This document shows positions 20,697 through 27,718 of a DNA stretch of 33,389 nucleotides, piece by piece. How positions within the stretch are numbered: the stretch's first letter is position 1; every line of letters starts with the position of its first letter. The notes under the pieces are model-generated. The model searched no databases. It had not been told where the DNA came from and was given only the letters and a program-made list of their open reading frames with translations. The position numbers and the translations under genes are program-made. This DNA comes from Kiritimatiellia bacterium (lineage in GTDB: Bacteria > Verrucomicrobiota > Kiritimatiellia > SLAD01). The stretch is taken from contig SKLK01000078.1 in NCBI GenBank assembly GCA_007123265.1, positions 1-33,389 of the forward strand, in the 5' to 3' direction.

Positions 20697-21452
20697 ATGA
20701 AAAAGAACTATACGTGGAGTCGTCTGCTTGTGCTGGGCGCTCTCTTCGTTGGTGTGACGGTACAGGCCGACAGTGACGAAGCAGCGAAAGATTCAAAATC
20801 AGATGTCACCTTTAGCGCCGGTCTTACCTGGACGGACGGCAACAGTGACACCTTACGCGGGAATGCCGCCGTATTATACGAAGGCGAAAAGGAACGATGG
20901 GGGTCCGTTCGCGCGGGCGTCGAAGGGAATTATGGCTATACCCGCACCGACGGGGAACGGGAAACGGACGTCGAAAATGTCCGCGCCTACATTAACGCCC
21001 GTAAACCGCTGGCCAAACATATTTATGGGGCGCTAAACTTTTCCTTCCTCCATGATGGTCAAGCCGACGTGGATTATCGCTTTATTCTCGGTCCCGGCTT
21101 GGGTATCGCGGCGTTCAAAAATGAGTCGACCGAGCTGACATTCGAGATTGGTCCTTCGTACGTCTGGGAAAAAGAAGACGGGGTCACGGATGATTATCTA
21201 GCCCTGCGATTTGCCCAGCGACTGGACCACCGCATTAGCGAGACCGCCCGCGTCTGGCAACAAGTCGAATATCTACCGAATGCCGAGAAATTCAGCGATT
21301 ACCTGTTGTTTTCCGAAATCGGCATTAGCGCTGATCTGACCCAGCGTTTGGCCCTACGCCTAGTGGCTCAAAGTGCGTACAACAATAAGCCGGCGGCGGA
21401 CACGGAGCGGCACGACCTAACCGTGATCACCGGGTTAAGTTTTACCCTCTAA
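20697..21452 (+). CDS. DUF481-like outer-membrane beta-barrel protein
   Basis: Signal peptide; VTFSAGLTWTDGNSDTLRGNA, GPGLGIAAFKNESTELTFEIGPSYVWE, C-terminal LTVITGLSFTL. Confidence 0.8.
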   Translation: MKKNYTWSRLLVLGALFVGVTVQADSDEAAKDSKSDVTFSAGLTWTDGNSDTLRGNAAVLYEGEKERWGSVRAGVEGNYGYTRTDGERETDVENVRAYINARKPLAKHIYGALNFSFLHDGQADVDYRFILGPGLGIAAFKNESTELTFEIGPSYVWEKEDGVTDDYLALRFAQRLDHRISETARVWQQVEYLPNAEKFSDYLLFSEIGISADLTQRLALRLVAQSAYNNKPAADTERHDLTVITGLSFTL

Positions 21453-22577
21453 GAGATCTGCTCCAATCAGTTTGGCGGCTGTGGCGGCCGCATCGACATC
21501 GCCCAGACGGGCGGCGATGCCTTGCAAACCGGCAAGCATCGCTGCGCGTTCGGGCGTTTCGTCTATCAGGTCTTGCATGGCTGCGGCCATGGCAGTGGGC
21601 ATGGCTGCTTCTTGAAGGAACTCCGGGCAGAGCAATTTGTCGGCGACAATATTGACCATGCCGAGGTAGGGCACCCGGATTAATCGCTTGCCGAACCAAT
21701 AGGTTAGCGGCGCGGTTTTATAGACCACGATCATCGGACACTCCATCAACGCCGTCTCAATGGTGGCCGTGCCTGACGCCACCATGGCCGCCCGCGCTTG
21801 GCGCAGGACCTGCCGCGTTTCCCCCTGCACCACCGCCACGGGCAAGTCGGTATGCGCCTCCAAGTAAGGTTCGATTAACGCAGCAATGCGCGCGGAAGGC
21901 GCGGCAATAAGAAACGTGCAGGACGGCCGCTGTTGCTTTAGTCGCTCGGCGGCCTCTAACATCACCGGCAGAATCCGTTCAATTTCCTGGCGACGGCTGC
22001 CGGGCAACACGGCCACACGCGTATCGCCAGGCGGCCAAGGCAGGTCTACGGCGGGAGCCACCAAGGCGCGTTGGGTGGCGGCAACCAATGGATGTCCGAC
22101 AAAATCGACGCGCAGGCCTGTATCCTTGAAGACCTCCACTTCGAAGGGGAAAATCACCAGCAGATGATCGACCCATTGCGCCATGCGCTTCATCCGCGAG
22201 CGATGCCAGGCCCAAACTTGGGGACAGATATAATAGATCACCTTGATCCCCCGCCGATGGGCTTCCCGGGCGAACCGCAAATTAAATCCCGGATAATCGA
22301 CAAGCAACACTGCGTCCGGTCGTTTTTCCTCCATGCGCCGGACCAAGTCGTTGAAGACGCGCCGAAAGAAGCCATAGCGTTTAAGCACTTCATATAAGCC
22401 CAGCACCGCCATGTCGCGCACATCGTACAGGATATCCATACCGGTGCGTCGAAGAGCATCGCCCCCAACCCCCCAAACCGACCAATCGGGATTCTCGCGT
22501 TGCAGCGCCTCGACAATCGGTGCTACGTGCATATCCCCGGAGATTTCCCCCGCGACGACCAGCAACGATCGGCTCAC
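21435..22577 (-). CDS. lpxB: lipid-A-disaccharide synthase
   Basis: VVAGEISGDMHVAPIVEAL, DAVLLVDYPGFNLRFA, IYYICPQVWAWHRSRMKRM, FVGHPLV, VAVLPGSRRQEIERILPVMLEAA, VASGTATIETALMECPMIVVYK. Confidence 0.97.
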   Translation of the reverse strand: MSRSLLVVAGEISGDMHVAPIVEALQRENPDWSVWGVGGDALRRTGMDILYDVRDMAVLGLYEVLKRYGFFRRVFNDLVRRMEEKRPDAVLLVDYPGFNLRFAREAHRRGIKVIYYICPQVWAWHRSRMKRMAQWVDHLLVIFPFEVEVFKDTGLRVDFVGHPLVAATQRALVAPAVDLPWPPGDTRVAVLPGSRRQEIERILPVMLEAAERLKQQRPSCTFLIAAPSARIAALIEPYLEAHTDLPVAVVQGETRQVLRQARAAMVASGTATIETALMECPMIVVYKTAPLTYWFGKRLIRVPYLGMVNIVADKLLCPEFLQEAAMPTAMAAAMQDLIDETPERAAMLAGLQGIAARLGDVDAAATAAKLIGADLLEGKT

Positions 22578-23527
22578 GAAGCGCCCTCACTCAAGCGCCG
22601 GATGATGTCGATGGCCAAATTCAGCGCCTGCGCCGCATGTTCACCCGACACCACCGGCTGATCGCGCCGGGCCACACACGCAACGAACGACTGCAACTGA
22701 TGGGCCAGCGGCTCCCCTTTTTCGATCGGCACCTCGGCCCGCTCAAACGATTGGCCAGCACGGGTATATACTTCGCCGCTTTGGTTTTGGTAATCGAGCG
22801 AGATATAGGCTGCGTCAAGGAATACCCGGATTTTGCGCATGCGTTCCGGGCTGATGCGGCTGGCGGTGATGTTGGCGACACAGCCGTTTTCGAAGGCAAG
22901 TCGGACATTGGCAATGTCCTCCGTCGGACTCAACACCGGGGCGCCCACGGCATGGATGGACTTCACAGGTGACCGCACCAAGTGCAGGATTACTTCGATA
23001 TCATGAATCATCAAATCCAATACGACACTCACCTCGGTGCCACGGGGATGGAGTCCTTCCCGCGGTGGCGGATACGGGGCCAATCGGTGCGCCTCAATGA
23101 AGCGGGGCTGGCGGGCGACCTGTTCCAAATAGCTGAGGACGGGATTGAATCGCTCCACATGCCCCACCTGAACAATCACGTTATGGGTCCGGGCCAACTG
23201 GACCAAGGCCTCCGCCTCCGCGGTGGTAGCGGCGATCGGCTTTTCAATCAGGACATGACGCTTGGCCTCTATCAGGGTGCCGGCCACCTCGCGATGGAGG
23301 TCGGTCGGAACCACCACGCTCACCGCCTCAGCGCGCTCGGCCAACTCCTCGAGGCTGGCACAAGCATGCACACCGTGCCGATCGGCAATTTCGCGGGCCC
23401 GCTTCTGGTCCACGTCGTATACACCGACCAGTTCGGCATCCTGTAGCTCATGGTAGATACGGGCGTGGTGTTGTCCCAGTGCCCCGGTACCCACTACGCC
23501 GACTTGAACGGATCGTTTTGCCATCAT
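22574..23527 (-). CDS. Gfo/Idh/MocA family oxidoreductase
   Basis: VGVVGTGALGQHHARIYHEL Rossmann motif, HVLIEKPIAATTAEAEALV. Start taken at MMAKRSVQ (23527), overlapping the lpxI stop as ATGA; stop overlaps the lpxB GTG start. Confidence 0.9.
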   Translation of the reverse strand: MMAKRSVQVGVVGTGALGQHHARIYHELQDAELVGVYDVDQKRAREIADRHGVHACASLEELAERAEAVSVVVPTDLHREVAGTLIEAKRHVLIEKPIAATTAEAEALVQLARTHNVIVQVGHVERFNPVLSYLEQVARQPRFIEAHRLAPYPPPREGLHPRGTEVSVVLDLMIHDIEVILHLVRSPVKSIHAVGAPVLSPTEDIANVRLAFENGCVANITASRISPERMRKIRVFLDAAYISLDYQNQSGEVYTRAGQSFERAEVPIEKGEPLAHQLQSFVACVARRDQPVVSGEHAAQALNLAIDIIRRLSEGAS

Positions 23528-24393
23528 GTACTCCCCTCCGCTAACGCCATCGACCGGCCACCTGTCTGACGGTCCATATCCACGGCGATGAGCCGTATAC
23601 CCCATTGTCCGGCCAATTTAATCATTTCCACCTGATCTAAAAGGATTGTGCGGTGCGCCTCCACCGCCAGTACCGCCGCGCGCGCCCGCTTCATGTTGCG
23701 TAAGGTCCGCTCACCGATCACGGGAATATCAAAACGCATATCATGGCCTTGCTTGGCGGCCTTCACCACGACCGCACCGGGGCCGCCCAAGCGCCCGGCA
23801 CGTTTGATGGTCTCGTCCGTCCCTTCAAAGGCTTCCACGGCCAGAATGGTACCGGCTTTAATCACGACGGTCTGACCGATATCGAGGCCACTGGTCGCTT
23901 TAGCGACGCGAACACCCAAGGCGACGTCCGCTTGCTGTTGCTCGTCCAAGGGATCGCCGGTCAAGGGGCCGGGAGCGGGCATCGCGGCTTCCATGTAGCT
24001 ATGGGCCTCGACCAATTCGAGGCCGATAGCGGCCAGTTCATCGGCAATCGCGCCAAAAATGGAGTGGGCGTTGCGTTCCTTCAGCCCGCGCAATAAGCGC
24101 AGCAACGCGGCATCCATACGGACATTGAACAGATGCGTGGGCTTGATTTGACCGGCCATAACCACCCGGCGCACGCCACTGGCCTTGAGTGTTTCGAGTA
24201 ACGGGGCCAACTGCCCCAGATGCATCCAATGGACTTCCGAGGCCACGGCCTCAATCCGGCGGTCGGTCTCACGCTTAAAGGCAATGGCCACGATCCGTTC
24301 CACGCCTTGGCGGCGGGCCGACGCGGCCAGTACCCGCGGATACGCCCCGCGCCCCGCTATGATAGCCAATGCCTTATCGTCATGCTGTTCCAT
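23524..24393 (-). CDS. lpxI: UDP-2,3-diacylglucosamine pyrophosphatase LpxI (DUF1009 family)
   Basis: LAIIAGRGAYPRVLAASARRQG, VRRVVMAGQIK, QQQADVALGVRVAKATSGLDIGQTVVIKAGTILAVEAFEGTDETIKR, DMRFDIPVIGERTL, EMIKLAGQWGIRLIAVD. Start set at MEQHDDKALAI. Confidence 0.92.
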   Translation of the reverse strand: MEQHDDKALAIIAGRGAYPRVLAASARRQGVERIVAIAFKRETDRRIEAVASEVHWMHLGQLAPLLETLKASGVRRVVMAGQIKPTHLFNVRMDAALLRLLRGLKERNAHSIFGAIADELAAIGLELVEAHSYMEAAMPAPGPLTGDPLDEQQQADVALGVRVAKATSGLDIGQTVVIKAGTILAVEAFEGTDETIKRAGRLGGPGAVVVKAAKQGHDMRFDIPVIGERTLRNMKRARAAVLAVEAHRTILLDQVEMIKLAGQWGIRLIAVDMDRQTGGRSMALAEGST

Positions 24394-24492
24394 GGTGCCC
24401 GAGTATGCCAGAGTGGCGCGGGGTAAACAACACCTTGCATGCGGCAAGAAGCGAGAATCCGTAGAATTGGCCAGCCGGGGCGGCTTCGATGA

Positions 24493-25008
24493 TTAATCGG
24501 CGCTGATTCGATGAAATTGCAGACGCTCCACCGCCACGGCCAGCGACCGGCGATCCGCACCCAAACGGGTGGTGTAGGCGGCGCGCAGCGTAATCCGGTT
24601 TGGCCCTGACTGCCAGTACACGGCGGGAACCGCTGTCGTATAGGCATGAAACGCCGAATCATCCTTGGCCAACCATTCCGTCACATAACGGTTGTTAATA
24701 AACAAGCCAATGCGTTGTCTTCGGTATGGTTGATGGGCGATACCCGTAATCAGGGTGAGCGTAACCGCTTCCGGCTCGGTCCAGTCCCAATACAGATCGG
24801 CCTCCATCGCGATCATCCATCGGAAGGTCCGCTCGGGGTTGGTTTCCGCGTGACTCCATCCCCGCCCGATCCAATCAGCTTCCGCCACCGCCCCGGGCAC
24901 GATCTCGTGAATCAGCTCCGCACCCGCCGATACGGCTGTAGCGGCCCCCCCCCCCCAGACGATGCCGGCAAGCAGGATGGAACCTACACGCAACCAACCA
25001 CGAGTCAT
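24493..25008 (-). CDS. small secreted protein of unknown function
   Basis: From ATG 25008: MTRGWLRVGSILLAGIVWGGGAATAVSAG signal peptide, then a 140-aa beta-rich domain (DWIGRGWSHAETNPERTFRWM...RIGLFINNRYVTEWL). ATGA overlap with the upstream mutase stop; the ORF-track N-terminal extension is antisense-like and unlikely. Confidence 0.7.
   Translation of the reverse strand: MTRGWLRVGSILLAGIVWGGGAATAVSAGAELIHEIVPGAVAEADWIGRGWSHAETNPERTFRWMIAMEADLYWDWTEPEAVTLTLITGIAHQPYRRQRIGLFINNRYVTEWLAKDDSAFHAYTTAVPAVYWQSGPNRITLRAAYTTRLGADRRSLAVAVERLQFHRISAD
24945..24956 (-). repeat. 12-nt homopolymer (C on +, G on coding strand) inside the signal-peptide region
   Basis: GCGG-CCCCCCCCCCCC-AGAC on the + strand; encodes W-GGG-A in the 24493-25008 ORF. 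Confidence 0.95.
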
Positions 25009-26366
25009 TGTGATTTTGCCCCGGCCAAGCGGTGTTTGACTTGATCGATTAATGCCTCGCTTTCGTCGATGGTTGGCGCCTCGGCAATGATACGCAATAC
25101 GGGCTCGGTGTTGGAGCGACGCACCTGCACCCAACGGTCTCCCATATCGATGAAGAGTCCATCCACGTTCGTGATATCGTGATCGGCATATTGCTGCCGC
25201 AAATGCCGCAGTAGGTCCGGCGCATCGCCACTGCCAATCGGAATCTTTTCCTTCACCAATGCGTAGCGAGGAATGTCGGCGCATAACTCGCTGATCGATC
25301 GTCCGGAAACAGCCATCCACTCCAGAATCACCGCCATCGCGCCGTAACTATCTCGACAGGGATGGATAGCAGGAATGATGATGCCGCCGGTATGCTCGCC
25401 ACCGACGACGGCCCCGGTTTGGCGCATGACGGCGGACACATGCACCTCGCCGGTTTTACTCCGCGTCAAGGAGCAGCCCGCCGCTTGCGCCACTGCGGCC
25501 ACCGTCTGACCGGCGCTAAAGTTGGCCACGACCGGTCCCTTCCCATGCATGGCCAGCACCGCCTGTATCGCCAACGCCACGGTCATTTCCTCGCCAATCG
25601 GTTGCCCGGTCTCGTCGACAACGGCGAGCCGGTCGCCATCGGGATCCTGAGCGAATCCGACCGCATAGGCCCCTCCGCGCATTACGTCGCATAGCGCGTC
25701 CAAATGCTGTGCCAAGGGCTCCGGCTCACGCTCAAACGCCCCACTGGGGGTATCGAACAAGGTCGTCACGCGACAGCCCAACGACTTCTCCAGAAAGGGC
25801 CGGGTATAAATCGCGCCCACCCCGTTGCAACAATCCACTGCCACCGGAAATTGCCTCCCCCGAATCGCAGCATGATCGACATACCGCAGGATCTTCTCCA
25901 CATGGGGTTCCATTGCGCCTTCGCGGATCTGCACACTGCGCATATCCGTTTCTGGAACCAGCGGAAAATCCTGTTGATGATAAATATCAAACAATTCCTC
26001 GGCATGCACCGCATCAAAAAAGAGCCCGCGCCGGTCCACGAACTTGAGTGCGTTCCATTCCGCGCTATTGTGGCTGGCGGTGATCATGATCCCGCCGCGC
26101 GCCCCCTCCTTTCGCACCAGGTACAGCAACGAAGGCGTCGGAATGACGCCCACCAGAACCGGCTTACAACCGGCGCTGATCAGGCCGGCCACCACCGCAT
26201 GCTCAATCATCACCCCGGTGGGTCGCGTATCGCGGCCTACGAGAACGACACCGCCTCGTACAAATGTGCCCAGTGCCTGCGCAAATGCTGCAGCAACTTG
26301 AGGGGTAAATGATTCCCCGACCACGCCGCGCACACCGGATAAACCAATTTTCAGGGCATAATTCAT
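25005..26366 (-). CDS. glmM: phosphoglucosamine mutase / phosphohexomutase, motifs intact
   Basis: KIGLSGVRGVVGESFTPQVA, MITASHNSAEWNALKF catalytic Ser loop, DPDGDRLAVVD metal loop, GGEHTGG sugar loop, RRSNTEPVLRIIAEA phosphate loop. Confidence 0.88.
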   Translation of the reverse strand: MNYALKIGLSGVRGVVGESFTPQVAAAFAQALGTFVRGGVVLVGRDTRPTGVMIEHAVVAGLISAGCKPVLVGVIPTPSLLYLVRKEGARGGIMITASHNSAEWNALKFVDRRGLFFDAVHAEELFDIYHQQDFPLVPETDMRSVQIREGAMEPHVEKILRYVDHAAIRGRQFPVAVDCCNGVGAIYTRPFLEKSLGCRVTTLFDTPSGAFEREPEPLAQHLDALCDVMRGGAYAVGFAQDPDGDRLAVVDETGQPIGEEMTVALAIQAVLAMHGKGPVVANFSAGQTVAAVAQAAGCSLTRSKTGEVHVSAVMRQTGAVVGGEHTGGIIIPAIHPCRDSYGAMAVILEWMAVSGRSISELCADIPRYALVKEKIPIGSGDAPDLLRHLRQQYADHDITNVDGLFIDMGDRWVQVRRSNTEPVLRIIAEAPTIDESEALIDQVKHRLAGAKSQ

Positions 26367-27718
26367 AGCCCCTCCAATAAAAGGCGCATGGCTTCATCGG
26401 CCCGCTGCTCGGCCAAGGAAGCCTCTCGAGCCTCGGCGATCACGCGAATCAATTGCTGTGTTTGCGAGGCCCGCACATGAATCCAGCTATCGGCCCAATC
26501 CACCCGGAACCCGTCCGTCACATCTACTTTCCCGTCGCCGACAAACGCCGGCCGCTCTTTGAGAATGTCCAGTGCCCGATACCCTTCGCGTGAGCCGCAC
26601 GGCACACTGCGTTTTACAATGTGATAACGCGGCAAGGCATTCACCAGAGCCGACAACGGTTGCTCACTTTCGGCCATTGCTTCCAGCGCGCGCGCCATCA
26701 TCAAAAATCCATCAAACGCCGGCGAAAATGCCGGATCGGCCACGCTACCACTGCCTTCGCCACCCAGCGTGGCTTGATGATCCCGCACGGCCGACATCAC
26801 ATAGGCTTGTCCAACACGCGTCTTCACGACAGGCGCTTGGTGACGCGCGGCCAAATCATCCACGGTTCGGGTCGTGCACCCATTCGTGACCACCGTCCCC
26901 GAGCGCCGGGCCAGCATGTGATTGGCGATCAGCGCCAAGGTATATTCCTCGCTGGTAGGTTCGCCCGCCTCGGTCACGATCGACATCCGGCCCATATCGC
27001 TGCTCAGCACGAATCCGGCATCGCCCCGCACATGCGAAATGATCGAAGCCATTTGCAGGGCACTGCGTGGCCGGGGTTCGGGTTCGCGGGCCAGGTAACC
27101 TGACGGTTGGGCGTTAATGGGGATCAGACGCAGATTGAATTGTTGCGCGAAAGGCGCTAAGTAGGCGCACCCGGCGCCGCCGACGGGGTCAATTAACACC
27201 GTAAAACCAGCTTCACGAATAGCTTCCGCATTCACATGCTTGACGAGGGCGTCAAAGTAGGCGGTGCCGACATCGTGCATGGGCGCAATGGTCCCCATGC
27301 GCTGCCAATCCTGCTTGAGAAAATTGCGGCCATGGTAACTATCCAGTACCGCCTCGCCGCCCCAAGGCTCCAGCACGGCACCGTCAGCGCCGATCAGGGT
27401 CATCGCGTTCCAGCCCATGGAATTGTGTCCGCCGGAAACGGATAACGCGCCGGCCGCGCCCAGGCGGGGTACGGCAAATTGCACGAGGGGCGTGGGGCAG
27501 ACCCCCAAATCCACCACGTCACAACCGGCGCTAAGCAATCCCGACACCGCCGCCGCATGCAGCATAGGGCTGGAGGTACGGGTATCCCTGCCGATCAGCA
27601 CACGTCCTCCCTCGACATAGGTGGCAAAGGCGGAAGCGAAGTCAATGATCAGCAGTGGCGGCAACGATTCACCAGCAAAGCCGCGTAATCCAAAACTCGC
27701 GAGACGCAATTTGTTCAT
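26363..27718 (-). CDS. phosphohexomutase paralogue with degenerate active site, predicted pseudoenzyme
   Basis: Same fold landmarks (LASFGLRGFAGESLPP, VLIGRDTRTSS), but SGGHNSMGWN, SSDMGRMSIV, GGEGSGS and RASQTQQLIRVIAEA replace the canonical loops. Stop overlaps the next start (ATGA). Confidence 0.88.
   Translation of the reverse strand: MNKLRLASFGLRGFAGESLPPLLIIDFASAFATYVEGGRVLIGRDTRTSSPMLHAAAVSGLLSAGCDVVDLGVCPTPLVQFAVPRLGAAGALSVSGGHNSMGWNAMTLIGADGAVLEPWGGEAVLDSYHGRNFLKQDWQRMGTIAPMHDVGTAYFDALVKHVNAEAIREAGFTVLIDPVGGAGCAYLAPFAQQFNLRLIPINAQPSGYLAREPEPRPRSALQMASIISHVRGDAGFVLSSDMGRMSIVTEAGEPTSEEYTLALIANHMLARRSGTVVTNGCTTRTVDDLAARHQAPVVKTRVGQAYVMSAVRDHQATLGGEGSGSVADPAFSPAFDGFLMMARALEAMAESEQPLSALVNALPRYHIVKRSVPCGSREGYRALDILKERPAFVGDGKVDVTDGFRVDWADSWIHVRASQTQQLIRVIAEAREASLAEQRADEAMRLLLEGL

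Follow-up and report, generated by a model that had tools for sequence, protein, structure and literature searches.

Non-catalytic paralogues and archaeal-type mutases

The nearest parallels to the gene described here, a predicted inactive alpha-D-phosphohexomutase paralogue (gene X) lying next to an intact mutase gene (gene A), are PGM5 and the prozymes of trypanosomatids. Herring PGM5 (aciculin; 6y8y) is a PGM paralogue that lacks measurable mutase activity and has kept substrate binding (PMC7761743). In trypanosomatids, the AdoMetDC prozyme and deoxyhypusine synthase are examples of a dead paralogue beside an active one (PMC5201418, PMC3663545), and in deoxyhypusine synthase the dead paralogue is part of a heterotetramer (PMC3663545). 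A non-catalytic role exerted by protein binding, as proposed here for X, is also found for a phosphosugar mutase in the GlmM-CdaA complexes (7olh, 7ojs, 9g69). However, the GlmM of these complexes is competent in catalysis and its partner is an unrelated protein, whereas X is predicted to be dead and is tied to its own paralogue.

In four-domain fold and length, X resembles the archaeal-type mutases (Pyrococcus horikoshii 1wqa, Sulfolobus tokodaii 2f7l, and Thermococcus kodakarensis TK1108, 9du5, and phosphopentomutase TK1777, 9ix8), which also match it best in sequence and structure. Both T. kodakarensis enzymes assemble as homotetramers of the D2 or dimer-of-dimers type (PMC11940775, PMC11641776), which by analogy suggests that the ancestral assembly of X and A was tetrameric.

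Vertebrate PGM5 is of the eukaryotic PGM1 type and keeps the phosphoserine and the metal loop, whereas in X much more of the catalytic set is missing. We know of no role of PGM5 as a subunit of an active paralogue. The prozymes belong to unrelated enzyme families and eukaryotic hosts; complex formation and activation are proven there, whereas for X and A we infer the complex, as well as the inactivity of X. No description of an inactive bacterial phosphohexomutase paralogue was found in the open-access literature searched. The proven dead-paralogue subunits cited above are all eukaryotic and PGM5, the well-studied inactive phosphohexomutase, still has its catalytic serine; the X family would represent bacterial phosphohexomutases with an old, extensive and conserved loss of catalysis. 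Annotation is likely to name its members phosphoglucosamine mutase or phosphomannomutase, and would then place pathway steps wrongly in these mostly uncultured bacteria.

Fold and catalytic loops of X and A

The window, i.e., the whole stretch of 33,389 nucleotides that was analysed from a Kiritimatiellia bacterium, contains X and A on one strand (Table 1). The open reading frame that a sequence-only reading had assigned to X was borne out, and it lies on the minus strand, as the plus-strand translation is riddled with stops. A domain search found Pfam PGM_PMM_I to IV in X, all four in order and above cut-off. The claim that the overall fold is kept was corroborated by an AlphaFold2 model built from 29 orthologues, which shows the whole mutase fold with high confidence (mean pLDDT 92.2, pTM 0.92) and has 1wqa, 9du5, 2f7l and 9ix8 as its top solved matches in Foldseek (TM about 0.9). 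Thus, by descent and by fold, X belongs to the alpha-D-phosphohexomutase superfamily. It is not of the PGM5 lineage, since PGM5 structures are distant fold matches (15% identity) and archaeal-type mutases are the nearest.

X and A share 34% identity. Against TIGR03990 (Arch_GlmM; curated cut-off 439), A scores 471.5 bits and X 386.8 bits. Compared with the archaeal-type mutases, X therefore falls below the cut-off and is devoid of the phosphoserine and two metal-binding Asp residues, whereas A has them all. In addition to A, the genome of the window encodes a canonical GlmM, which passes its cut-off with 619.9 bits, and a further mutase of the PMM/PGM type. The overlap between the X stop and the A start recurs as a 4-bp ATGA in 25 of 56 X-A pairs measured, and translational coupling of the two genes is likely on the basis of this sequence.

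Table 1. Positions in the window of the two paralogues, the adjoining downstream gene and the loops and residues discussed in the text
Feature	Position	Strand	Basis
Gene X, predicted catalytically dead alpha-D-phosphohexomutase paralogue, 451 aa	26363..27718	minus	ORF, domains, model, family residues
Gene A, partner mutase with intact catalytic loops, 453 aa	25005..26366	minus	TIGR03990 (Arch_GlmM)
X stop/A start overlap, 4 bp ATGA	26363..26366	minus	ORF coordinates
Loop 1 of X, residues 93-107 SVSGGHNSMGWNAMT, position 97 Gly, position 107 Lys to Thr	27398..27442	minus	Alignment
Loop 2 of X, residues 239-244 SSDMGR, without metal Asp 1 and Asp 3, with Asp 2 and Arg	26987..27004	minus	Alignment
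Ser256-Glu257-Glu258, X-specific invariant	26945..26953	minus	74/74 X; not conserved in A
Gln304 of VGQ	26807..26809	minus	Gln in 64/74 X; Glu (VGE) in 70/70 A
Loop 3 of X, residues 319-325 GGEGSGS, sugar-binding loop with its key Glu/Ser/Gly retained	26744..26764	minus	Alignment
Lys369, X-specific invariant, between domains III and IV	26612..26614	minus	74/74 X; not conserved in A
Loop 4 of X, residues 416-421 RASQTQ, phosphate-binding Arg, Ser, Thr kept	26456..26473	minus	Alignment
Small predicted secreted protein, about 171 aa, directly downstream of A	24493..25008	minus	ORF

The substitutions quoted by the sequence-only reading are real: ITASHNS is replaced by SVSGGHNS, which turns the phosphoserine (residue 97) into Gly, DPDGDR by SSDMGR, GGEHTGG by GGEGSGS, and RRSNTEP by RASQTQQ. 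Active enzymes carry the phosphoserine in a T-x-S-H-N loop 1 and three metal-binding Asp in DxDxDR, and X has neither. The decisive losses are in loop 1, where the Lys of WNALK has also become Thr, and in loop 2 (Asp 1 and Asp 3). The accompanying statement that all four functional loops are altered holds for these two loops; in contrast, loops 3 and 4 keep the usual ligand residues (Glu321, Ser323 and Gly324; Arg416, Ser418 and Thr420), in line with the GExSG and R-x-S-x-T patterns of active enzymes. As domains III and IV keep most of their ligand residues, that statement overstates the loss at the ligand end. At loop 3, GGEGSGG was also read in some intact A partners.

These changes are conserved across the large X orthologue family, as was seen in a residue table of 74 X and 70 A sequences. 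Among the 72 X sequences readable at the phosphoserine position (two are gapped), 69 have a residue other than Ser (Gly 66, Ala 2, Thr 1) and three have Ser, compared with Ser in 70 of 70 A. Metal Asp 1 is present in 3/74 and Asp 3 in 2/74 X sequences, whereas all A have both; every X retains the middle Asp and the Arg after it. The loop-1 Lys (WNALK) occurs in all 70 A and is replaced by Thr, Ile or Val in most X. The sugar-loop acid (Glu/Asp), Ser and Gly, together with the Arg, Ser and Thr of the phosphate loop, are mostly retained throughout the X family. The catalytic-base Lys of domain III (aligned position 301) was too variable in both the X and the A alignments to be used.

The loss of three independent catalytic elements is a strong argument, from residues, that X is catalytically dead. 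It is very improbable that X is still a mutase by an unconventional route, e.g., with a different phospho-acceptor or a free sugar bisphosphate. The kept fold and substrate-binding residues of domains III and IV would be compatible with such a route, as would the phosphoserine of three early-branching X sequences, but the two metal Asp and the loop-1 Lys are gone and loop 1 has no other conserved Ser or Thr (X sequences of the Lentisphaeria type read GAGHQ or GAGHH). A phospho-acceptor shifted to the Ser/Thr two residues ahead of position 97 was considered and rejected, since this residue is Gly in 26 X sequences, leaving loop 1 with no conserved alternative acceptor.

Descent, selection and distribution of the pair

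A tree calculated after masking of the functional loops has X and A as sister clades (SH-aLRT 92 and 89). When Acidobacteriota were added, a free quick tree placed one X (L175) among the A sequences; the tree holding all X together had a likelihood 22 units higher. Because of the sister clades and this gain in likelihood, the simplest account of the sequences is one old duplication of an archaeal-type mutase, after which X lost catalytic residues. The three X sequences that keep the phosphoserine are deep-branching (L050, L177 and the second pair of genome G267). The X of L050 keeps all three metal Asp. The metal loops are partial in L177 and the second X of G267, and other partial catalytic states occur in L175 and L176. 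Acidobacteriota have intermediates in which part of the catalytic set is left, and nearly every genome has an intact partner gene alongside. With living intermediates and an intact neighbour, the steps from a homomeric enzyme to an enzyme with a pseudoenzyme are testable by ordinary biochemistry.

The second, divergent X-A pair of G267 (L107, on G267:C73) has an X with the phosphoserine kept (TGSHN) and metal Asp 1 and 3 lost. This pair groups with L177 of another phylum, which suggests that the pair may have been horizontally transferred between the two lineages.

Selection on X was assessed by dN/dS in close species pairs and ranged from 0.034 to 0.170, compared with 0.038 to 0.163 for A, i.e., purifying selection on X equals that on the active partner. 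The mean protein distance of X is slightly smaller than that of A within Kiritimatiellia (0.402 versus 0.422) and slightly larger in other lineages (0.518 versus 0.486), with no sign of accelerated decay. The distance matrices of X and A are correlated (Mantel r 0.88; none of 1000 permutations as high), and shared species history explains part of this correlation. It is next to inconceivable that X is a pseudogene or a decaying duplicate. All that speaks for it are the sequence changes in the loops themselves and a distant relative (G309) with an in-frame stop near the C-terminus, but the frame is open in dozens of genomes, dN/dS is far below 1 and equal to that of A, and the altered loops are conserved after a single old origin. 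Simple decay is ruled out by dN/dS, rate parity with A and the conserved loops, and the intact-loop orthologues that the sequence-only reading had named as a sign of such decay do not bear it out, the phosphoserine being kept only in the three deep X sequences. The stop of G309, an Aminicenantes X (L047/L169), is a TAA ahead of the phosphate loop, and may be either an error of the metagenome-assembled genome (MAG) or a truncated copy.

X is not an oddity of one genome. Orthologues with 54-71% identity were found in all genomes sampled from the family to which the window belongs, and in part of the class. Named relatives come from Kiritimatiellae, Lentisphaerae and other PVC bins; those in Aminicenantes and an Acidobacteriia bin are more distant. 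The X-A pair was found in 4 of 99 genomes from the phylum of the Aminicenantes bin. For the phylum of the window, 291 genomes, mostly MAGs, were searched with an X and an A profile, and both searches matched the same 53. From a reading of both profile tables, A occurs in 53 genomes and X in 50 of them; A without X was seen in three (G060, G124 and G237, with no X remnant beside A in G237), and X without A in none of the 291. The dead paralogue is thus obligately retained with the active one, as for prozymes.

X lies directly upstream of A nearly everywhere that the contig allows. Exceptions are several genomes that keep X and A on separate contigs, and a few in which the two are no longer adjacent (e.g., G059, G064, G066 and G109); in one Lentisphaeria-like genus they have moved apart and both are still present. 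In one pair (L089, G246) the A partner is altered too (ASQHPAEWNA, DPDGDSLT, RKSYSGS), and both members may be inactive, judging by these motifs.

Proposed role of X and neighbouring genes

X has the whole fold without the phosphoserine and two of the metal Asp, and it has been retained only in genomes that also retain A. The proposal of the sequence-only reading that X is under selection for a non-catalytic role found support in dN/dS, loop conservation, co-occurrence and adjacency with A, and the fold model. X is probably a dedicated non-catalytic partner of the active mutase A, an ancient and selectively maintained pseudoenzyme. The closest solved relatives are homotetramers, so the ancestor of both would have been one too, and X and A probably form a joint assembly, e.g., an X2A2 hetero-oligomer in which phosphoryl transfer would be carried out by A only. 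More tentatively, X might still bind sugar phosphate via the kept loops of domains III and IV and its own Ser-Glu-Glu and Lys369, and might stabilise, activate or tune A in a prozyme-like manner. A more specific version, an obligate hetero-oligomer in which dead X binds sugar phosphate at the altered site (Ser-Glu-Glu, Lys369) and allosterically controls A, is conceivable and rather less than an even prospect. That A can live without X and X not without A fits a helper subunit. However, the three genomes with A alone also mean that A-type enzymes do not always need X, and the few genomes with non-adjacent X and A likewise speak against a dedicated partner. Mutual information between X and A showed no enrichment at predicted interface segments, where 1 of the top 100 pairs fell and 0.8 was expected, at low power (50 effective sequences). 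If the more specific, allosteric version holds, this would be a prozyme-type system in central sugar-phosphate metabolism that spans Kiritimatiellia, Lentisphaeria-like classes and some Acidobacteriota.

A role of X as a stand-alone sugar-phosphate sensor or regulator of a protein other than A, as GlmM acts on the c-di-AMP cyclase CdaA, is distinctly unlikely. Domains III and IV have largely retained their ligand-binding loops, the X model matches the solved GlmM-CdaA complexes, several genomes retain X though not beside A, and the window's genome has a gene for a DAC-domain (c-di-AMP) cyclase (G000:C231:7037-7390). However, X does not occur without A, it is usually closely coupled to A and shares its evolutionary history, and the canonical GlmM of the genome would be available for the CdaA role.

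It is likewise unlikely, if somewhat less so, that X was neofunctionalised, i.e., that mutase chemistry was lost and the remaining conserved pocket (His98, Asp241, Arg244, Ser256-Glu257-Glu258 and Lys369) runs another sugar-phosphate reaction coupled to A in a pathway. In all readable X sequences, the ancestral active site and its surroundings contain several invariant polar residues, Ser-Glu-Glu and Lys369 are specific to X, and genes of the same pathway are often paired. On the other hand, His98 and the Asp-Arg pair are ancestral and also kept by A, and no known member of the fold suggests a reaction. The neighbours of the pair also differ between classes, none being common to different classes, and thus imply no pathway.

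Downstream of A, the window (21435-25008, minus strand) encodes the small protein of Table 1 that is predicted to be secreted, a UDP-2,3-diacylglucosamine pyrophosphatase resembling LpxI, an oxidoreductase of the GFO/IDH type closest to UDP-GlcNAc 3-dehydrogenase, and LpxB. The small protein starts with an ATG at 25008 in a 4-bp overlap with the A stop, has no Pfam or NCBIfam match and is outside the conserved X-A pair. A role of the pair in lipid A synthesis was considered and set aside, as the cluster (LpxI, GFO/IDH, LpxB) is linked to X-A only within the genus (in full in L188, LpxI alone in L182). A TatC gene lies ahead of X in 5 genomes. The gene after A encodes a HAD-IB family phosphatase in 13 genomes of the Lentisphaeria-like type (e.g., L134:11592-12248), which hints at a sugar-1-phosphate dephosphorylation step.
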